From contig QWQH01000143.1 of the NCBI GenBank assembly GCA_003670915.1, forward strand, positions 1-35,835: 35,835 nucleotides of DNA, given 5' to 3'. The stretch comes from Planctomycetota bacterium. GTDB lineage: Bacteria; Planctomycetota; Planctomycetia; Pirellulales; UBA1268. The notes beneath the pieces were generated by a model, which worked only from the letters and a program-made list of their open reading frames with translations, ran no database searches and had not been told where the DNA came from. Both the position numbers and the translations under genes were made by a program. Positions 6,543-29,614 of the stretch are shown one piece after another (the stretch's first letter is position 1; each line of letters begins with the position of its first letter).

Positions 6543-6583
6543 CAGGCGTGGCGGCCAATCGTGCGACGTCTCAAAGATCTGCC

Positions 6584-7690
6584 ATGAGCCCTGCCGCCGA
6601 CGTGATCATTGTGGGCGCCGGAATCGCCGGTCTCTCCGCAGCCGAGGTGCTGACAGGTGCTGGCCATTCGGTGATCGTGCTCGAAAAAGCGACCGGTGTA
6701 GGCGGGCGCATGGCCACGCGGCGAGTGGGCGATGCCGTATGCGATCACGGCGCACAATTCTTTACGGTGCGTGGCCGAGCGTTTGGAAAGAGAGTAACCG
6801 CTGCCCATGCCGCTGGCGTGGTACGGCCATGGTCAAATGGTTTTCTACGAGCGGCGTCGAATGGATCTGAAGTCCTCCCTGCCGTGGACGGCCATACACG
6901 ATGGTGTGGATCGCTCGGCATGCGCGATTTCCCGAAACACATCGCCGCGGGTCTGCCTGCCGATCGCTGTACGATCATGTGTGGCACGCGAGCGGCTGCC
7001 ATTGGGATCGATGGCGGCCGCGTTCGCACCACGATCGAAGGCGCATCGCATCGTTTTGCCAGTCAGCCACTGTTGTGCTCGCTCGAAAGCATTGAGACTG
7101 CCGCTGCGATCGTGACGTGCCCGGTGCCACAGTCGCTTGCCTGCATGGCCGCGGGCGGGCTTTTGGACCGAGGCGGGGGCATCGACGACACGGCCATGCG
7201 ATTGCTGGCCGGTGTCTCCTATGATCCGTGCTTTGCGTTGATCGTTGTGCTGGACAAGCCCAGCCGCGTGCCGGCCCCAGGTGCGATTGTGTTTGATTCG
7301 GGTCCGATTGCGTGGATTGGCGACAATCAGCAAAAAGGGATTTCGCCCGTGCCGGCCCTTACAGTCCATGCCTCCGCAGCCTGGAGCCGTGAGCACTTCG
7401 ACGTCCCGCAGGATGAGGTGGCCCGACTCCTGCTGGGCGCGGCCAGTGCGTGGATTGACGGCCCGCTTGAGACATCAGTGATTGAGCGATCGATGCAACG
7501 CTGGAAATATTCGCAACCCGCGACGATCATCCCTGCGCCCATGGTCGCGGCGACAACACAGCCCCCGATCGTCTGCTGCGGCGATGCCTTCGGCGGCCCG
7601 AGGGTGGAAGGTGCCGCTTCCAGTGGCGTGGCGGCGGCCACATGGATGCTGCGAGTGCTCAAAGGCCAACTGTCAGACCGGCAGAGATGA
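6584..7690 (+). CDS. Renalase-like FAD/NAD(P)-dependent oxidoreductase
   Basis: DVIIVGAGIAGLSAAEVLTGAGHSVIVLEKATGVGGRMATRR...DHGAQFFTVRGRAF; C-terminal FAD motif CCGDAFGGPRVEGAASSGVAAA. Confidence 0.82.
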   Translation: MSPAADVIIVGAGIAGLSAAEVLTGAGHSVIVLEKATGVGGRMATRRVGDAVCDHGAQFFTVRGRAFGKRVTAAHAAGVVRPWSNGFLRAASNGSEVLPAVDGHTRWCGSLGMRDFPKHIAAGLPADRCTIMCGTRAAAIGIDGGRVRTTIEGASHRFASQPLLCSLESIETAAAIVTCPVPQSLACMAAGGLLDRGGGIDDTAMRLLAGVSYDPCFALIVVLDKPSRVPAPGAIVFDSGPIAWIGDNQQKGISPVPALTVHASAAWSREHFDVPQDEVARLLLGAASAWIDGPLETSVIERSMQRWKYSQPATIIPAPMVAATTQPPIVCCGDAFGGPRVEGAASSGVAAATWMLRVLKGQLSDRQR

Positions 7691-7709
7691 AATAGGGAGT
7701 GTGGCGGAG

Positions 7710-8999
7710 ATGAGCCAAGCAGTTGACTGCATCGTGGTGGGCGCTGGACTGGCAGGGTTGGCGTGCGCGCATGCGCTTGAGCGAGTGGGGAAGCGTGTGT
7801 TGGTGGTTGAGGCGGCAGATCGCGTGGGCGGCCGCGTAGCGACCGACTCGGTCGAAGGATTTCGCGTGGATCGGGGATTTCAAGTCTATCTCGACGCCTA
7901 CCCAGAAGGCCGTCGGCAGTTGGATTTGCCCAGATTGCAACTCGGGTGTTTTGAGGCTGGGGCATTGGTGGCCGTCAACGGTCGATTGCGACGCGTGAGT
8001 GATCCCTGGCGGAGGCCGCTGGCAGCGATGGGCTCGCTGATAAACGGCAGTGTAGGGTTAGCCGATGCGGTGCGCACCGCACGCTTGCGGAGCGATGTCA
8101 TAGCCGCTTTTCGCAGCGGCCATGCGGATCCCAACGGTGCCGTCGGCGCACAAGGCGAACAATCTACCCTTGAAATGTTGGCTGCACGAGGGTTTTCTAC
8201 GAGGTTCGTTCGGGAGTTTCTCTCACCATTTTTTGGCGGCGTGTTTTTGGAACGCCAATTAAAGACATCTGCCAGAGTCTTTGACTTCACGTTTGCGATG
8301 TTTGCTCTGGGGCGGGCCTGTTTGCCACGCGGTGGAATGGATGCAATCCCCAACCAGATGGCCGCTCCACTGGCCGCCGGCACAGTGAGGCTCAAGTGTG
8401 CCGTGTCGCAGGTGGCACCCGGCCGTGTGGGGTTGGCCGATGGCCGTTGGCTGACAGCAAACGATGTCGTTGTGGCGACGGAGGCATCCGCCGCTGCTCG
8501 GCTCGTGCCGGAGTCACTCCGCGGCCAGTGGTCTTTGCGAAAAAACAAGTCGACCCGACTGGTCGCATTTGCAGCAGAAAGATCGCCGCTGCACAACCCG
8601 ATCCTGCTGGTCAACGCTGATGAGTCCGGCCCGATCGACAATGTGTCGGTGCCATCCGACGTGGTCGACGGCTATGCGCCACCCGGAGCCTCGCTGGTGA
8701 CCGTATCGGTAAGGCAGGAGTTTTCTAGCACCGACGCCGATCTGCCGGCCGCCATTGCGCAGCAGGCCAGCGCGTGGTTTGGGCCGGAAGCGTTCCGATG
8801 GAAGCACCTCTCGACGGTACGCGTTGAGCAGGCTCTCCCAGAGGAGTCTCCAGCGGCACGCAGGTTGCGGGCGAGTGGACCGCAACTGGCTCCCGGTTTG
8901 TTTCTCTGTGGCGACCACTGCACGAGCGCCTCCATCAATGGATCTCTGGTCAGCGGTCGGCTTTGCGCTGAGGCAGTGCTCGAGCAAGACGCCTCATAG
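7710..8999 (+). CDS. FAD-dependent amine oxidase/protoporphyrinogen-oxidase-like protein
   Basis: DCIVVGAGLAGLACAHALERVGKRVLVVEAADRVGGRVATDSVEGFRVDRGFQVYLDAYPE; C-terminal LFLCGDHCTSASINGSLVSGRLCAEAVL. Start at ATG 7710, not the longer ORF start at 7482. Confidence 0.82.
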   Translation: MSQAVDCIVVGAGLAGLACAHALERVGKRVLVVEAADRVGGRVATDSVEGFRVDRGFQVYLDAYPEGRRQLDLPRLQLGCFEAGALVAVNGRLRRVSDPWRRPLAAMGSLINGSVGLADAVRTARLRSDVIAAFRSGHADPNGAVGAQGEQSTLEMLAARGFSTRFVREFLSPFFGGVFLERQLKTSARVFDFTFAMFALGRACLPRGGMDAIPNQMAAPLAAGTVRLKCAVSQVAPGRVGLADGRWLTANDVVVATEASAAARLVPESLRGQWSLRKNKSTRLVAFAAERSPLHNPILLVNADESGPIDNVSVPSDVVDGYAPPGASLVTVSVRQEFSSTDADLPAAIAQQASAWFGPEAFRWKHLSTVRVEQALPEESPAARRLRASGPQLAPGLFLCGDHCTSASINGSLVSGRLCAEAVLEQDAS

Positions 9000-14755: not shown

Positions 14756-15505
14756 CTACGGGGAAGAGCGGCTGTTGTTTTCGTGGGCGTATGTAGGGCG
14801 GAGATAGTTTGGTGCGAGCGCATGCGGGTTATGTGCCTCGCCGGCAGCTGCGAGGAGAATCGCGACGGCCCCCACTTCGGCGGCTGTCGGGAGCCAGGCC
14901 TGCCGAGGGGCTATCGAGAGACCCAGCCGTATGGCGAGTGGATCGACCGCGAGCCGATCGCCCAGAGCGTTCAGGGCGGGACCTGCTATGTGGCTGCCGT
15001 GCGAAAGCGTGGCAAGCCAGCCCTCGACCGTGCAGAGCGATTCTGGTCCGACGTGCCAGCCTGTGGCAGATTCGGCAGGCACGGCCTTGGCCGCGAAGAG
15101 TTCGCCGCGGCCGGCATCGTAGACAATGGAGATCGGATACACCGGCACGCTCGGGCTTGCAACGCGTGGCTCTGAAGCGTTTGGGTTGGCCAACGTGAAG
15201 CACTGTCGAGCGATCACCTCAAATCCAGACACCCCAATGAGTGTCGCACCGGTTGTCCATGCCAGTGCTTTGGCTGTGGCGATGCCAATGCGCAGTCCCG
15301 TGAACGATCCGGGCCCCCGCACCACGCCAATGAGTTCAGCCTCACCAGGCGTCCACCCCAGGCTCGCGGCCACTTCCGTCAGTGCTGGGGCGATTCGGCG
15401 GGCGTGGGCGTTGACTCCTGGGAGGAATTGCTGGGCCACCCGGCCCTCCGAGAGGGCGGCCACGGAACCGGCAGGAAGGCTTGAGTCGATGGCAAGTGTT
15501 TTCAT
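14756..15505 (-). CDS. tsaB: tRNA threonylcarbamoyladenosine biosynthesis protein TsaB
   Basis: MKTLAIDSSLPAGSVAAL...NAHARRIAPALTEVAASLGW...VVRGPGSFTGLRIGIATAKALAW. Confidence 0.9.
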   Translation of the reverse strand: MKTLAIDSSLPAGSVAALSEGRVAQQFLPGVNAHARRIAPALTEVAASLGWTPGEAELIGVVRGPGSFTGLRIGIATAKALAWTTGATLIGVSGFEVIARQCFTLANPNASEPRVASPSVPVYPISIVYDAGRGELFAAKAVPAESATGWHVGPESLCTVEGWLATLSHGSHIAGPALNALGDRLAVDPLAIRLGLSIAPRQAWLPTAAEVGAVAILLAAAGEAHNPHALAPNYLRPTYAHENNSRSSP

Positions 15506-15678
15506 GGGCAGCGGGCGACTGGGGCAATGCTTGACCGACGTTTCAACCGTTCGTAGGCTCACAGGGTGTTCAGACAGATTGAAGTGTCATTTCCACAGCC
15601 TGCCAGCCGCGCGACCGTCCGCGACGAGCCCAGCTTAGACCAACGATTCGGGCCAGACGAGAATAGGGTTTGATACGA

Positions 15679-16449
15679 GTGAAGCGGGCTATCATCAGCG
15701 ACATCCACGGCAATCTTGAAGCGATGCAGGCGGTGCTCGATGATATCGACAGGCAGAAGGTGGATGCCATCTACTGCCTTGGCGACATCGTCGGCTATGG
15801 ACCCAACCCGTGCGAGTGCGTCAGGTTGGTTCAGGACCGCTGTAGCATGGTGCTTCTGGGGAACCACGATCAAGGGGCATTGTTCGATCCGGACGGTTTT
15901 AACGTGGGAGCAGAGAAGGCGATCCGCTGGACCCGTAGCCAGTTGGAGCAGCACGACCGAATGCCTAAACATTCCGCGGATCGGCTGAGCGATTTTTTGG
16001 GAGAACTGCCCCGCACACATACCGACGGCGAATTACTCTTTGTGCACGGCTCAGCTCGGCGTCCGCTGGACGAGTATGTTTTTCCAGAAGATATTTATAA
16101 CCCGCTCAAACTGGAGCATATTTTTGAACTTATTGGCCGCTATTGTTTTCAGGGGCATACGCACATACCGGGCGTGTTTACGATGTCGCCCGAATTTCTA
16201 GCTCCGACCATTGTGCAGGGGAATAATGAATGCCGACTCCCGCTGCCGGGCCCAAAGGCGATGGTGAATGTCGGATCGGTTGGACAGCCTCGGGACGGAG
16301 ACCGTCGGGCATGCTACGCGATTCTGGAGGACGCAGAGTCTGTGCTCTACCGCCGCGTGGAGTATCCTTTTGATGTGACGTGCCGGAAGATTCACGCCAT
16401 TGCGGACCTCGATAATTTTCTCGGCGACCGGCTCACGCAGGGCCGCTAG
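15679..16449 (+). CDS. YfcE/MJ0936-like metallophosphoesterase
   Basis: [80 protein letters not shown]. Confidence 0.9.
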
Positions 16450-16677
16450 TGCCTTGCGGCAGTTGGATTGGATGGGGCAGGAATCGGGGGTATCCGTTGG
16501 GATTTTGTATCCCACGCCTGCAAAACTGCTGCGCGCGGAGTCGCAAAACGGATTGGTTCGTTATACTCCGAAGTCCTGACGCGAGTCATCGCGACGTTGC
16601 GCAGGCTGCCGGCTAGAGGTGTTGTGTCGCCTATCCTCTGCGGGCCGCTCACACTCACGGCACTGGAATCATCTGCA

Positions 16678-19032
16678 GTGGAACGTCGCTACATTCTTTT
16701 TGCCATCATTTCGTTCACGATTCTGCTCGGTAGCCAAGCTTTGCAGGTCTATCTTTTTCCTCGGCCTCCAGCCGTTCAAGAGGCGGCTGGGCTACAAGAC
16801 TTGGCACAGGAATCGGATGCACTGCCCTCCAACGGGAAGAAAGCAGCCGATGCATCCAACGAAGCCAGCGCCACAGAGGCAGCCGTCGCAGCGTTGCCTT
16901 TGGAGTCGGTGGATGACGTGCCGCGGGTGCGGCATGTGCTTGGATCACTCGACCCAGATTCGCCTGCACAGATGCTCGTCACGTTCACCAGTCGTGGTGC
17001 TGCAGTGGAGCGGATTGAATTAGCCGGAGGCCGCTTCCACGACCAAGACACCAGAACGGGCCATCTCGGACATCTCGCATGCGAGCAGGTGCCAGAAGGC
17101 TGCCGGATCGGACTTGTCGGCAGTGGCACACCGGCCGATCGAGCTGGCTTGAAGCAAGGCGACATCATTGCCCAATGCAACGGCGTGGCAACACCCAGCC
17201 CGACTGCATTGAGCGCAGTACTGGCTGCAACGAAGCCCGGACAGCGGATTGAGGTGGAGGTGATGCGCGACGGCCTCACGACTCGCCGCGAGGCAACGCT
17301 CGGCTGGAGGCCCCTTGAGGTGGTGCGGCCCGAATTTCGGACCGAGCCCTTGGATGATGGTGAGATCGGACTCGACGGGCATCCGTGCGATCCGCTGTCG
17401 TTTCAGCTTTCGCTGGAATCGTGCAACGGCAAAAAACGCAGCTCGCCTTCTGCTGAAATTCCAGGACATGAGCTCAATAATCGCAACTGGGTGGTGGAGC
17501 GTGCTGACGAGAAAGGCGTGCGGTTCACCGTGCAGTTACCAGGTGGGCTTTCGCTGGCCAAGGAATACAGGCTTGTTGCCGGTGTGCAGCCGGACGGCCC
17601 TGCCAAGAAGGCTGGCCTCGGCAGCGAAGGCGACCGAGCCGGTGCAGCCGGGGATCGTGCGCAGGGCAATCGGCTTGAACTCACAGTAGAATTACGATCC
17701 GCGGACAAAGAGTCGTCTGTGGTGTACTCGCTCGACGGTCCAACTGGATTGCCTACCGAGGGTTGGTGGTATACGGCTAGGGTGGCACGCGACTGGGGGT
17801 CGCTGGCGGTCCGAGACATGGCGATGCGATTTGTTGGCGAACAGAGCACGCTTGTGAGCAGCTTAAAAATAACAGATGGGGCCATTGATTATCCCGCGAC
17901 TGCAGTGCGAGCAGGCAAGCCCCTCTCATTTGCCGGCGTCGATGCCCTCTACTTTGCAGCGGCCCTCATCCCTGTGATCGAAGGGCCCAACGCACCCGCG
18001 CTCTCTGAGGTGCGTCCGCTGATTGTCGGAGATATTCCGGAGGCTGCCAAACGCAAGCTTGTGAACGTGACGTGCCGCTTGGTCTCCAAGGATCTCACGC
18101 TCAATCGCGGAGAGCCGATCTCGCACCGTTACGAGATTTTTGCGGGGCCAAAGAAGCCCGAGCTGTTGTCGCAATTCGGTGCCAAGGGTTCCACGATGGA
18201 CGACCTTGTCTATTACGGGTGGTTTGGCTGGGTGGCTAGGCCAATGATTGCCATCCTGCATGCGATCCACTTGGTCGTTGGCAATTATGGGCTGGCGATT
18301 TTGCTGCTCACAATCGCAGTGCGCGGCGCGATGTTTCCAGTGAGCCGGAAACAGGCACTCTCTTCGCAGAAAATGCAGGTGTTGCAGCCCGAGATGAAGG
18401 CCATTGCGGATAAATATAAAAACGAGCCCGAGAAACGCACCAAGGCTACGCAAGAACTCTGGAGCAAGCACAGTTACAACCCAATGGGTGGGTGCCTGCT
18501 CGTTTTTATCCAGGTGCCAATCTTCATGGGGTTATACCGCTCGTTGGCCACCGATGTGGAGTTGCGTCAGGCCCCGCTCTTTAGTTCGGCAATCCGCTGG
18601 TGCTCCAATCTGGCGGCGCCCGACATGCTCTACGATTGGTCGAAGGTGCTGCCGCCCTTTCTAACGGCCCCGGACGGCTGGCTGGGGCCGTATCTCAATC
18701 TGTTTCCGTTGGCCACGATCGGGCTCTTTCTCTGGCAGCAGAAACTCTTCATGCCGCCAGCCGTCGACGAGCAGTCAAAGATGCAGCAGCAGGTGATGAA
18801 GTACATGATGTTTTTCATGGCCCTGATGTTTTTTAAGGTACCGTGCGGGCTGTGCCTGTATTTCATCGCATCCAGCCTCTGGGGCATTGCCGAACGCCTC
18901 CTCTTGCCGACGTCACTACCGGCAGGCGCTGGGGGGAGCCCCCTTGCTGCTGCACTGCCAGCCGGGAGCAGGAATGGGGAGAAGGTCGCCGATGCGGTGC
19001 GGCAGAAGCGACTGGCACGAAAGAAGCGTTAA
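16678..19032 (+). CDS. yidC: Membrane protein insertase YidC with an embedded PDZ-like domain in the periplasmic region
   Basis: GTG start VERRYILFAIISFTILLGSQALQVYLF; C-terminal 60KD_IMP core NYGLAILLLTIAVRGAMFPVSRKQALSSQKMQVLQPEMKAIADKYKN...NPMGGCLLVFIQVPIFMGLYRSL; periplasmic DGPTGLPTEGWWYT. Confidence 0.93.
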   Translation: MERRYILFAIISFTILLGSQALQVYLFPRPPAVQEAAGLQDLAQESDALPSNGKKAADASNEASATEAAVAALPLESVDDVPRVRHVLGSLDPDSPAQMLVTFTSRGAAVERIELAGGRFHDQDTRTGHLGHLACEQVPEGCRIGLVGSGTPADRAGLKQGDIIAQCNGVATPSPTALSAVLAATKPGQRIEVEVMRDGLTTRREATLGWRPLEVVRPEFRTEPLDDGEIGLDGHPCDPLSFQLSLESCNGKKRSSPSAEIPGHELNNRNWVVERADEKGVRFTVQLPGGLSLAKEYRLVAGVQPDGPAKKAGLGSEGDRAGAAGDRAQGNRLELTVELRSADKESSVVYSLDGPTGLPTEGWWYTARVARDWGSLAVRDMAMRFVGEQSTLVSSLKITDGAIDYPATAVRAGKPLSFAGVDALYFAAALIPVIEGPNAPALSEVRPLIVGDIPEAAKRKLVNVTCRLVSKDLTLNRGEPISHRYEIFAGPKKPELLSQFGAKGSTMDDLVYYGWFGWVARPMIAILHAIHLVVGNYGLAILLLTIAVRGAMFPVSRKQALSSQKMQVLQPEMKAIADKYKNEPEKRTKATQELWSKHSYNPMGGCLLVFIQVPIFMGLYRSLATDVELRQAPLFSSAIRWCSNLAAPDMLYDWSKVLPPFLTAPDGWLGPYLNLFPLATIGLFLWQQKLFMPPAVDEQSKMQQQVMKYMMFFMALMFFKVPCGLCLYFIASSLWGIAERLLLPTSLPAGAGGSPLAAALPAGSRNGEKVADAVRQKRLARKKR

Positions 19033-19087
19033 AGAGGTTAGAGCAGACCGATTGCTTGAGCGGGTTTGAAGAGAGGTCCGTTATCTT

Positions 19088-20587
19088 TTGAGGCCTGCAG
19101 CCGTGTGGTCCACTCACGAATTGATTGTTGCCCCGGCGACGGTTCGGGGATTTGGTGCGAGGTCGGTTGTGCGATTGGCCGGCGATGGACTTGAGGCCCT
19201 GCTGGCGACCCTGTTTCGACCTCGCGGCGCTGGCTTCACAACAGTTGGGCAGGGGCCACGGTTGGTGGCCGCATGGATTGCAGATGAGCCGCTTGGATTG
19301 GAGTGGGGAAGTTTGGAGGTGGAGGTTCTCTACTGGCCGGGGCCAGCCGGGCCGATGGGCGGTCCACTGGCTGAAGTGCAGTTGCCATGTTCGCCGCTGC
19401 TGAGTGATGCAATCGTAGCAGAGGCCTGTCGGCACGGGGCGAGGCTGGCACGTGGCGGTGAATTCTCGCTCCGCGCATTTTTGGCAGGGCGGCTCGATCT
19501 TTTGCAGGCAGAAGCAGTTGTCTCGATTGTGGATGCCCGTACGCCATCTGAATTGACCGAGGCTCTGGACCGCATGGCCGGCGGAGTAGGGCAGCAGTTG
19601 CATGCCATTCGGGATCGGCTCCTCAATTTGGTTGCCGATATCGAAGCTGCCATCGACTTTGGCGACGAGCGGATTCGAGATGAGGCGTCCACGGCTCAGA
19701 CAGCGTTCTGGGCTCAGGTCCATGCTGAAGTGTCGGCAGCTACTGAGGCGTTGGCCGAGTGCAGCAAGCGACTGGCGGCGAGGGATGCTGCCGCGACCGG
19801 GCAACTGCCGCGGGTGGTGCTTGTCGGCCGACCCAACATCGGCAAGAGCAGTCTCTTCAATGCCCTCGTAGGACACCCTGCTGCGATCGTTGCTGACGAA
19901 TCGGGAACCACTCGCGACTGGATCTCCGCCAGACTGGAAGACTCCGCGGCTGGCGTTTTCAGAGGCACACAAACGGCCTGCATGCTGGTGGATATCGCCG
20001 GCGTGGGTAGCGGCCATGACGGCCATGATGGCCATGATGGGGATGGCCCGGCGGCCATTCAAAGGGCAGCAGTCGCCAGCGCCATCGGGGAGGTGTCGAG
20101 GGCCGATGTGGTGGTCGTGTGTCGCGATGCAAGCGATGGATCAACGGATGCATCGAGCGATCAGTTCATGGATCTACTCCACAGAATGGATCGAACCGCA
20201 GGCTCGGTTGTGCAGCGACTGGCTGTGGCGACTCGCTGCGATCGGGAAGCGACCGGGCCCATTGCCGTTGGGGCACTCGCTACCAGCAGCGTCACCACCC
20301 TCGGTATCGATGCCTTGCGGCAAGCCATTTTTCAGGCTATCTCTACACTGCCCGGGTATTTTTCCGCCGCCACGCTTCGCATGCGCGTGGGTGTTGATGC
20401 CACCGCCACGAAGTTGGCGGAGGCATCCGCAATGGCGGCTCTCACGCAGGCTGGTGGCACTCAGGACGAAGCAATTGTGGCCAGCCTCCTCACCGTCGCG
20501 ATCGATTCTCTCGGAGCAATCACTGGCGCCGAGGTCGGCACGGATATCCTCGATCGCATCTTTTCCAGGCACTGTATCGGCAAGTAG
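19088..20587 (+). CDS. mnmE: Divergent tRNA modification GTPase MnmE (TrmE)
   Basis: [58 protein letters not shown]-terminal FSRHCIGK; start TTG 19088 or a later codon. Confidence 0.88.
20012..20038 (+). repeat. 9-bp in-frame tandem repeat x3 (GHD)3 inside mnmE
   Basis: ggccatgac/ggccatgat/ggccatgat, directly after the G3 motif DIAG. Confidence 0.9.
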
Positions 20588-27473: not shown

Positions 27474-27607
27474 AGACACCGCTGATCGGGAAGCGGCAAC
27501 TGGGATAGAATACGCCTGATGGCCGAAAGAGCGATCAGTCGAGCGTCTTTTGGCCTCCTGAGCTCCGCGTGGAGCAGGTGTTGGTTGATTGGACCATCGA
27601 GGATTGT

Positions 27608-29614
27608 ATGACTCAACGAGTTGTGTTGGAGGCGACGAGGACTTCTCTCTGGGCGGCCGTTGATCGCCTTTTGCCATGCGGGCTCCACCGATGGTTGGTG
27701 CTCAGCCCGGCAGTCCTCTTGTGTGCGCTGACGATCTGTCAGGTGTTTGTAACGCGAGCCCGAGCTGAAGGTCCCGTGCCGCCGAGTGATCAGGATGGCT
27801 TGCGTGACCGTCTGCGAGAGGAAGTTGAGTGGTTGGCTTCGCCTGATCGCGAAGGGCGAGGCCCAGGTACACGCGGAATGAATCAGGCAGCCGATTGGAT
27901 TGCCGAACAGCTTTCAAAGGCGGGGCTCATCACAGAGTTCGATGGCAAAGGGCCATTCCAGAATTTTTCCATGACGCTTGAGGCCAAGCCAGGGCCCGCC
28001 ACAAGCAACATCGCCGAAATCATCGGGCCACCCAACGCGGATGGATCTGCTCGTGTCCAGTCGCTTCAGCTCGGTAAGGATTTCACGCCGTTGGCCGCCG
28101 GCGGCTCGGGGGAGTTTGATCTTCCGCTGGTGTTTGCCGGCTATGGGATCACTGCACCGGCTGAACAATACGACGACTACGCGCCGCTCACCAGCAAGGC
28201 GGCCAACAAAGGGGCGGCAGCGATTCTACTTCGACAGGAGCCTCAAAAAGACAATCCGCACAGTGTGTTCGATGGCAATCAGGCATCCCAATACGCTGCG
28301 CTTTCCAGAAAGGTAGCGAACGCATCGGAGCATGAGATGGGCGGAATCGTGTTTTGTAATGATGCCTCCGATTCAGAAAACGCACTCATGCCATTCAGCC
28401 GTGCTGGCGATGGTTCTGACCGACGCGCACTGCCGATTCTTCAAATCAGTCGCGAGTTAGTCAGCGTCCTCATGACTGAAAGTCTGGGCAAAAATCTTGC
28501 CACAATTGAAAAGGCGATCGACGAGACGTTTGAGCCGCAGAGCGCCCCATTGAATGGGTGGCGGCTTCGAGGCCGCGTGGCCATTGATCGCGTGGAGTCG
28601 GAAACAAAAAATGTTTTGGGAATGCTGCGGGGCACGGGCCAAGGGTTCCGCACCGCAGACGGCGAGGCCCCGGATTCGGGCAAGGGAGCCCCCTCTGGGG
28701 GCGAGGCCGAAGTTGTTGTACTCGGCGCGCATTACGATCACCTTGGCTACGGTGGAGTCAATTCGGCAGCTCCCGGCGAGAAAACGGTGCACCATGGCGC
28801 CGACGATAACGCGAGTGGTGTGGCCATGCTTGTGGAAGTGGCACGGCTGTTATCGCACGAGGGACCGTTTCCTCGCAGTGTGCTTTTTGTGGCATTTTCT
28901 GGTGAGGAGCGTGGGTTGCTAGGCAGTGCGCATTACACAGCCAATGCCGCAGTGCCGCTGGCTAACACCGTTGCGATGGTGAATCTTGACATGGTTGGTC
29001 GCCTCGACGGCAACAAGATTGTCATCCACGGCACCGGTACGGGCAGCGGACTCGATGCGATGGTCGATCGACTTGTTGGCACCCATGCCTTCGACGTGGC
29101 CAAGGAGCCAGGCGGCTTTGGCCCAAGCGACCATTCGAGCTTTTATGCGAAGCGAATCCCTGTCTTACACATCTTCACAGGGTCGCACTCCGACTACCAT
29201 CGTCCCACAGACACCCCCGATAAGATCAGCTACGAAGGAATGGCCCGCATCACGCGTCTTGTGGCTGATGCCGTGCGTGAGCTGGCGACGTCTCCCGCAA
29301 GGCCTCAATACATTGAGGTGGCATCCAAGATGTTTGCTGGGGGCGGTGACCGCCCCTACTTTGGCAGCATCCCCGACTTTGGAAAACCTGGGAACGGCTA
29401 TGCCATTACAGGGGTAACCAAAGACTCGCCCGCAGCACGTGGCGGGCTTCTAGGCGGTGATAGAATTGTGCGAATCGGGGCAAGCGCTGTCACGGGTCTG
29501 GAGGATTTCGACAGCGCGCTGCGGAAGCACAAGGGGGGCGAAACGGTGCCCGTTATCGTCCTGAGGGACGGTGTGCAGGTTTCGCTGGACGTCGTTTTGG
29601 ATCCGCCTCGATGA
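27608..29614 (+). CDS. Exported M28-family zinc aminopeptidase with PA-like and C-terminal PDZ domains
   Basis: VVLGAHYDHLGYGG, HHGADDNASGVAMLVEVARLL, FSGEERGLLGSAHY, MVNLDMVGRL, GPSDHSSFYAKRIPVLHIFTGSHSDYHRPTDT; PDZ GYAITGVTKDSPAARGGLLGGDRIVRIGASAVTGLEDF. Confidence 0.9.
   Translation: MTQRVVLEATRTSLWAAVDRLLPCGLHRWLVLSPAVLLCALTICQVFVTRARAEGPVPPSDQDGLRDRLREEVEWLASPDREGRGPGTRGMNQAADWIAEQLSKAGLITEFDGKGPFQNFSMTLEAKPGPATSNIAEIIGPPNADGSARVQSLQLGKDFTPLAAGGSGEFDLPLVFAGYGITAPAEQYDDYAPLTSKAANKGAAAILLRQEPQKDNPHSVFDGNQASQYAALSRKVANASEHEMGGIVFCNDASDSENALMPFSRAGDGSDRRALPILQISRELVSVLMTESLGKNLATIEKAIDETFEPQSAPLNGWRLRGRVAIDRVESETKNVLGMLRGTGQGFRTADGEAPDSGKGAPSGGEAEVVVLGAHYDHLGYGGVNSAAPGEKTVHHGADDNASGVAMLVEVARLLSHEGPFPRSVLFVAFSGEERGLLGSAHYTANAAVPLANTVAMVNLDMVGRLDGNKIVIHGTGTGSGLDAMVDRLVGTHAFDVAKEPGGFGPSDHSSFYAKRIPVLHIFTGSHSDYHRPTDTPDKISYEGMARITRLVADAVRELATSPARPQYIEVASKMFAGGGDRPYFGSIPDFGKPGNGYAITGVTKDSPAARGGLLGGDRIVRIGASAVTGLEDFDSALRKHKGGETVPVIVLRDGVQVSLDVVLDPPR

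Follow-up and report, generated by a model that had tools for sequence, protein, structure and literature searches.

An HtrA-type PDZ domain within the periplasmic domain of YidC in the planctomycete order Pirellulales

The YidC encoded in the stretch of DNA analyzed here (35,835 nucleotides from a planctomycete of the order Pirellulales, referred to as the window) carries a PDZ domain of the HtrA/DegP type inside its periplasmic domain (P1). The domain entered YidC in a single event, in the common ancestor of the Pirellulales, and has been kept since; that it most likely captures the C-terminal tails of emerging clients is a reading to which we give about an even chance. YidC, an essential protein that inserts others into the inner membrane, is nearly universal, and the role of its periplasmic domain is unsettled. 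Here, that domain has been extended throughout an order by a peptide-binding module that is well understood, and every genome examined has kept it. As the ligands of a PDZ domain can be found by standard peptide screens, this offers a direct handle on the periplasmic contacts of YidC, be they clients, the holo-translocon or quality-control partners. The architecture is real and conserved and has apparently not been described. It is also a candidate order-level marker, as every sampled member of the Pirellulales has it and none of the other planctomycetes examined does.

Results

The host protein is a bona fide YidC, with a P1 and an insertase core that are otherwise ordinary. Its gene lies in an open reading frame spanning positions 16468-19032 of the forward strand, in which we chose the GTG start by aligning VERRYILF with the MERR or MDRR starts of the relatives (Table 1). 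The 60KD_IMP match exceeds the curated Pfam cut-off, the YidC_periplas match (E 9e-09) covers only the C-terminal part of that profile, and the YidC models of NCBIfam match the protein as well. R549, which aligns with the arginine of the E. coli hydrophilic groove (FIVRG), is invariant in 52 relatives. Membrane insertion activity is predicted from membership in the YidC family. Besides this protein, no second 60KD_IMP protein was found in the window's genome, an assembly that is 75.6% complete and consists of 157 contigs.

Table 1 Features of the yidC gene and its product, with positions in the window.
Feature	Position	Strand	Basis
yidC, membrane protein insertase, 784 aa	16678..19032	+	60KD_IMP 1e-43; GTG start (VERRYILF...)
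N-terminal transmembrane helix, residues 2-26	16681..16755	+	AlphaFold helix 2-26; hydrophobic sequence
First beta-hairpin of P1, residues 99-115 (LVTFTSRGAAVERIEL), directly before the insertion	16972..17022	+	AlphaFold strands 99-104 and 109-115
Inserted PDZ domain, residues 122-216	17041..17325	+	Pfam, PDB profile search, AlphaFold, Foldseek, full-length profile match
Carboxylate-binding loop G-H-L-G, residues 128-131 (consensus G-Y-L-G)	17059..17070	+	Conservation in 52 relatives
PDZ core motif GTPADRAGLKQGD, residues 150-162	17125..17163	+	G150, P152, A153 and D162 invariant in 52 relatives
Helix expected to line the peptide groove, residues 175-183	17200..17226	+	AlphaFold helix; role at the groove assigned by analogy to other PDZ domains
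Remaining P1 beta-supersandwich, residues 217-491, with DGPTGLPTEGWWYT at 353-366	17326..18150	+	YidC_periplas match; match to E. coli P1 structures
Insertase core (60KD_IMP), residues 537-742	18286..18903	+	Profile match

The presence of a PDZ domain within the periplasmic region had been proposed from a peptide that does lie in frame in the yidC reading frame, and is borne out by three Pfam families: PDZ_2 (E 3.8e-12; 46.8 bits vs. a cut-off of 27), PDZ_6 (E 5.8e-09) and PDZ (E 3.8e-08), all far beyond chance. In NCBIfam, this region is also matched by TIGR02037, the profile of DegP/HtrA (E 4.6e-12), and HtrA PDZ domains were the top matches of a profile search against PDB sequences. The Pfam matches place the domain between the N-terminal helix and the remaining periplasmic domain. 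No trypsin-like protease domain was found in the protein with Pfam, and the HtrA models match over the PDZ part only. About ten other open reading frames of the window's genome match the profile of the YidC PDZ, none of them closely (best 48 vs. 135 bits). The original prediction had put the domain at 17077-17320; position 17077 is indeed the first base of residue 134, but the real domain is longer (17041-17325), and the earlier start misses the carboxylate-binding loop, which lies upstream of it.

Structure prediction also returned a true PDZ fold, as had been anticipated. The AlphaFold model of the full protein, built with an alignment of 52 Pirellulales sequences, has a mean pLDDT of 79.4, with values of 83-96, mostly above 91, for ten-residue blocks over the PDZ domain; modelled alone, the domain reaches 86.6. 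With Foldseek, the full model finds crystal structures of E. coli YidC and its P1 on the one hand and PDZ domains of HtrA proteins on the other. The PDZ-only model matches AlgW, DegP, DegQ and DegS (E 4e-07, TM 0.86, best rmsd 1.2-2.3 Å), with 1.2 Å to peptide-bound DegS. The fold matches of the domain are mostly of the HtrA type, several of them solved with a bound peptide.

E. coli YidC (PDB 6al2 and 3wvf; P1 in 3blc and 3bs6) shares the insertase core, the N-terminal anchor and the P1 beta-supersandwich, but is devoid of a PDZ domain, whereas Pirellulales YidC has about 95 residues inserted right after the first P1 hairpin. In the AlphaFold model, the next strands past the PDZ domain are 214-216 and 244-249. 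The first hairpin is conserved in the alignment also in planctomycete YidC proteins without a PDZ. The HtrA proteases DegS, DegP, DegQ and AlgW hold the closest relatives of the domain in fold and sequence, with the same type of carboxylate loop and the same periplasmic location; they carry a protease domain, however, while the YidC has none and its PDZ is nested in an insertase.

To survey the distribution of the insertion, as the original prediction had suggested, we gathered YidC genes at three levels: close relatives, class and phylum (Planctomycetota). A profile built from Pirellulales YidC detected the PDZ domain in 52 of 52 YidC proteins of the order, which represent 20 families, and in none of the 138 YidC proteins from elsewhere in the phylum at E < 0.01. 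Nor was a degenerate copy found among these 138, the best score being 8.8 bits (E 0.018). As the profile was trained on 27 of the 52 proteins, Pfam served as an independent check: PDZ_2 was found in all 21 Pirellulales YidC, and no PDZ family of Pfam in 61 YidC of other planctomycetes. These proteins of other orders belong to the same family and have similar length and similar P1 motifs; they differ in the missing PDZ. In a scan of genome contigs, 79 of 80 named yidC loci contained the domain, the remaining one being cut by the contig end; these loci include Bythopirellula polymerisocia, Rhodopirellula sp., Thermoguttaceae and Pirellulales MAGs.

When the tree is built from only the insertase core, all 52 proteins with the PDZ group together on one branch (SH-aLRT 96). 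The trait requires one change on this tree, as opposed to 45.9 on average when shuffled. It is therefore enough to assume that the domain was gained once, at the base of the Pirellulales, with no loss in the sample. The survey also bears on whether the architecture might be an artefact of assembly or annotation, with two genes joined or a chimeric contig. The completeness and contig number of the window's genome would allow for this; however, the same architecture stands at the same place in all 52 proteins of the order, including those of four single-contig genomes (G040, G041, G051 and G058), and in a named isolate, Bythopirellula polymerisocia Pla144 (L245). The artefact is thus refuted by the order-wide survey, and its probability can be considered negligible.

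The alignment of Pirellulales YidC also indicates which parts of the domain are constrained. In the carboxylate-binding loop, G128 is kept in 51 of 52 proteins, Y129 in 46 (H in the window), L130 in 43 and G131 in all 52; in the helix expected to line the groove, L178 and L182 are kept in 43 and 47 of 52, respectively. The GTPA..AG..GD core is kept too; elsewhere in the PDZ, residues change freely (2.5-3.5 bits). As the mean entropy of the PDZ (1.67 bits) is the same as that of the rest of P1 (1.68-1.71 bits), the domain evolves at the rate of its surroundings and behaves as a normal part of P1. As the loop is conserved while other surfaces of the domain vary, the groove is probably functional, and peptide binding is likely, although part of the loop conservation could be structural. 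In the PDZ domains of HtrA proteins, the carboxylate of the peptide is held by a loop of the GYLG type. Since the window has GHLG instead, and position 132, usually V or I in HtrA PDZ domains, is mostly H among the relatives, the binding specificity may be particular to PDZ-bearing YidC.

As for previous descriptions, a 2019 survey classified 7,852 microbial PDZ proteins into 12 families and noted multiple PDZ proteins per planctomycete genome (PMC6411480). It lists no YidC-linked family, and insertase, Oxa1 and 60kD protein are not mentioned in its text; architectures from fewer than 20 species were left unclassified. Our search of the mainly open-access literature found no such protein described, in agreement with the original prediction. 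The insertion is general within the Pirellulales, yet we found no sign of its being documented; database entries annotated automatically may well show this architecture.

Discussion

The original prediction had suggested that the domain could recruit C-terminal peptides of substrates or proteases. HtrA PDZ domains often recognize the C-terminal tails of exported or membrane proteins, and DegS reads the C-termini of outer-membrane proteins. In the mechanism that we propose, the HtrA/DegP-type PDZ that entered P1 of the sole YidC once, in the ancestor of the Pirellulales, and has been retained since, places an intact peptide groove beside P1, near the exit of the polypeptide from SecYEG/YidC. 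In the simplest view, the PDZ adds affinity for free C-termini at this site. It most likely binds the free C-terminal tails of emerging exported or C-out membrane proteins, and the insertase would thereby keep hold of its clients until they fold or pass to the quality control of the periplasm. A more far-reaching version, which we offer tentatively and think rather unlikely, is that of a client-sensing insertase, whose PDZ would read the C-terminal tails of envelope proteins as these emerge, in the manner of DegS with outer-membrane proteins, so that a single polypeptide would couple insertion with folding or degradation in the periplasm. In E. coli, P1 contacts SecDF and probably emerging chains, and its cleft was proposed to bind unfolded polypeptide (PMC7618853). 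However, E. coli P1 tolerates a large deletion and is largely dispensable (PMC7618853), so that the added PDZ could be of minor effect.

A serious rival, possible though clearly short of an even chance, is that the PDZ serves as a docking site for a single constant partner whose C-terminus is periplasmic, such as a chaperone, an HtrA or Ctp protease or a translocon subunit, and so builds a translocon or quality-control complex specific to the Pirellulales. The order-wide presence and the conserved loop suit a constant ligand, and E. coli YidC works with SecDF and FtsH-HflKC (PMC7618853). The partners that we considered fared poorly, however. The C-terminal tail of SecG was rejected as a conserved ligand, as the tails of Pirellulales SecG are of low complexity and variable length and end differently in each genome, with no common C-terminal motif. 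HflK/HflC were rejected as a universal ligand, as in some genomes with a PDZ-bearing YidC (G051 and G099) just one protein matches Band_7, and weakly. The C-terminus of YidC itself was discarded because that end is cytoplasmic, according to the established topology. We thus favor client capture over a fixed partner because of the binding habit of HtrA PDZ domains and the lack of support for SecG and HflK/HflC, although these reasons are weak, and that the ligands are client tails should be taken with less confidence than peptide binding itself. Alternatively, the domain might no longer bind peptides and serve a structural purpose, as a spacer or as an intramolecular brace of P1. Its evolution at the rate of the rest of P1 would fit, and other planctomycetes enlarge the same region of YidC without a PDZ. 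Nonetheless, the carboxylate-binding loop is among the best-conserved parts of the domain, while the surfaces away from it vary, and we consider this explanation improbable.

Additional observations

The genes around yidC are conserved as well. Across Pirellulales loci, a block of a tsaB-like gene (on the reverse strand), a calcineurin-like phosphoesterase, yidC and mnmE is found, corresponding to 14756-20587 in the window. The phosphoesterase is near yidC in 73 of 80 loci and the tsaB-like gene in 65 of 80, and mnmE lies at most 1 kb downstream in 50 of the 56 loci with enough sequence. The C-terminal tails of Pirellulales SecG (L286-L315), of low complexity and very variable length, are long and rich in Ala, Pro and Glu.

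Genome G063, from a different family within the class, encodes a YidC (L105:50-2524, reverse strand) that has no PDZ and whose periplasmic domain contains two apparent EF-hand calcium-binding loops (DGNRDGTIERSEW and DLNGDNKLSPSEA). Among the 61 non-Pirellulales YidC scanned with Pfam, one matches EF-hand_5 (6.7e-06), probably this same protein. Judging from their sequence, the loops look like a second, different elaboration of planctomycete YidC.

Elsewhere in the window, the forward strand encodes, at 27569-29614, a peptidase of family M28 whose C-terminal domain is a PDZ (PDZ_2 3e-11); peptidase M28 with PDZ is among the microbial PDZ families (PMC6411480). Two overlapping forward-strand reading frames, 6548-7690 and 7482-8999, each match the flavin amine oxidase family from its start, the former covering only the first 48 positions of the profile and the latter the whole profile; they are possibly a duplicated or broken gene.
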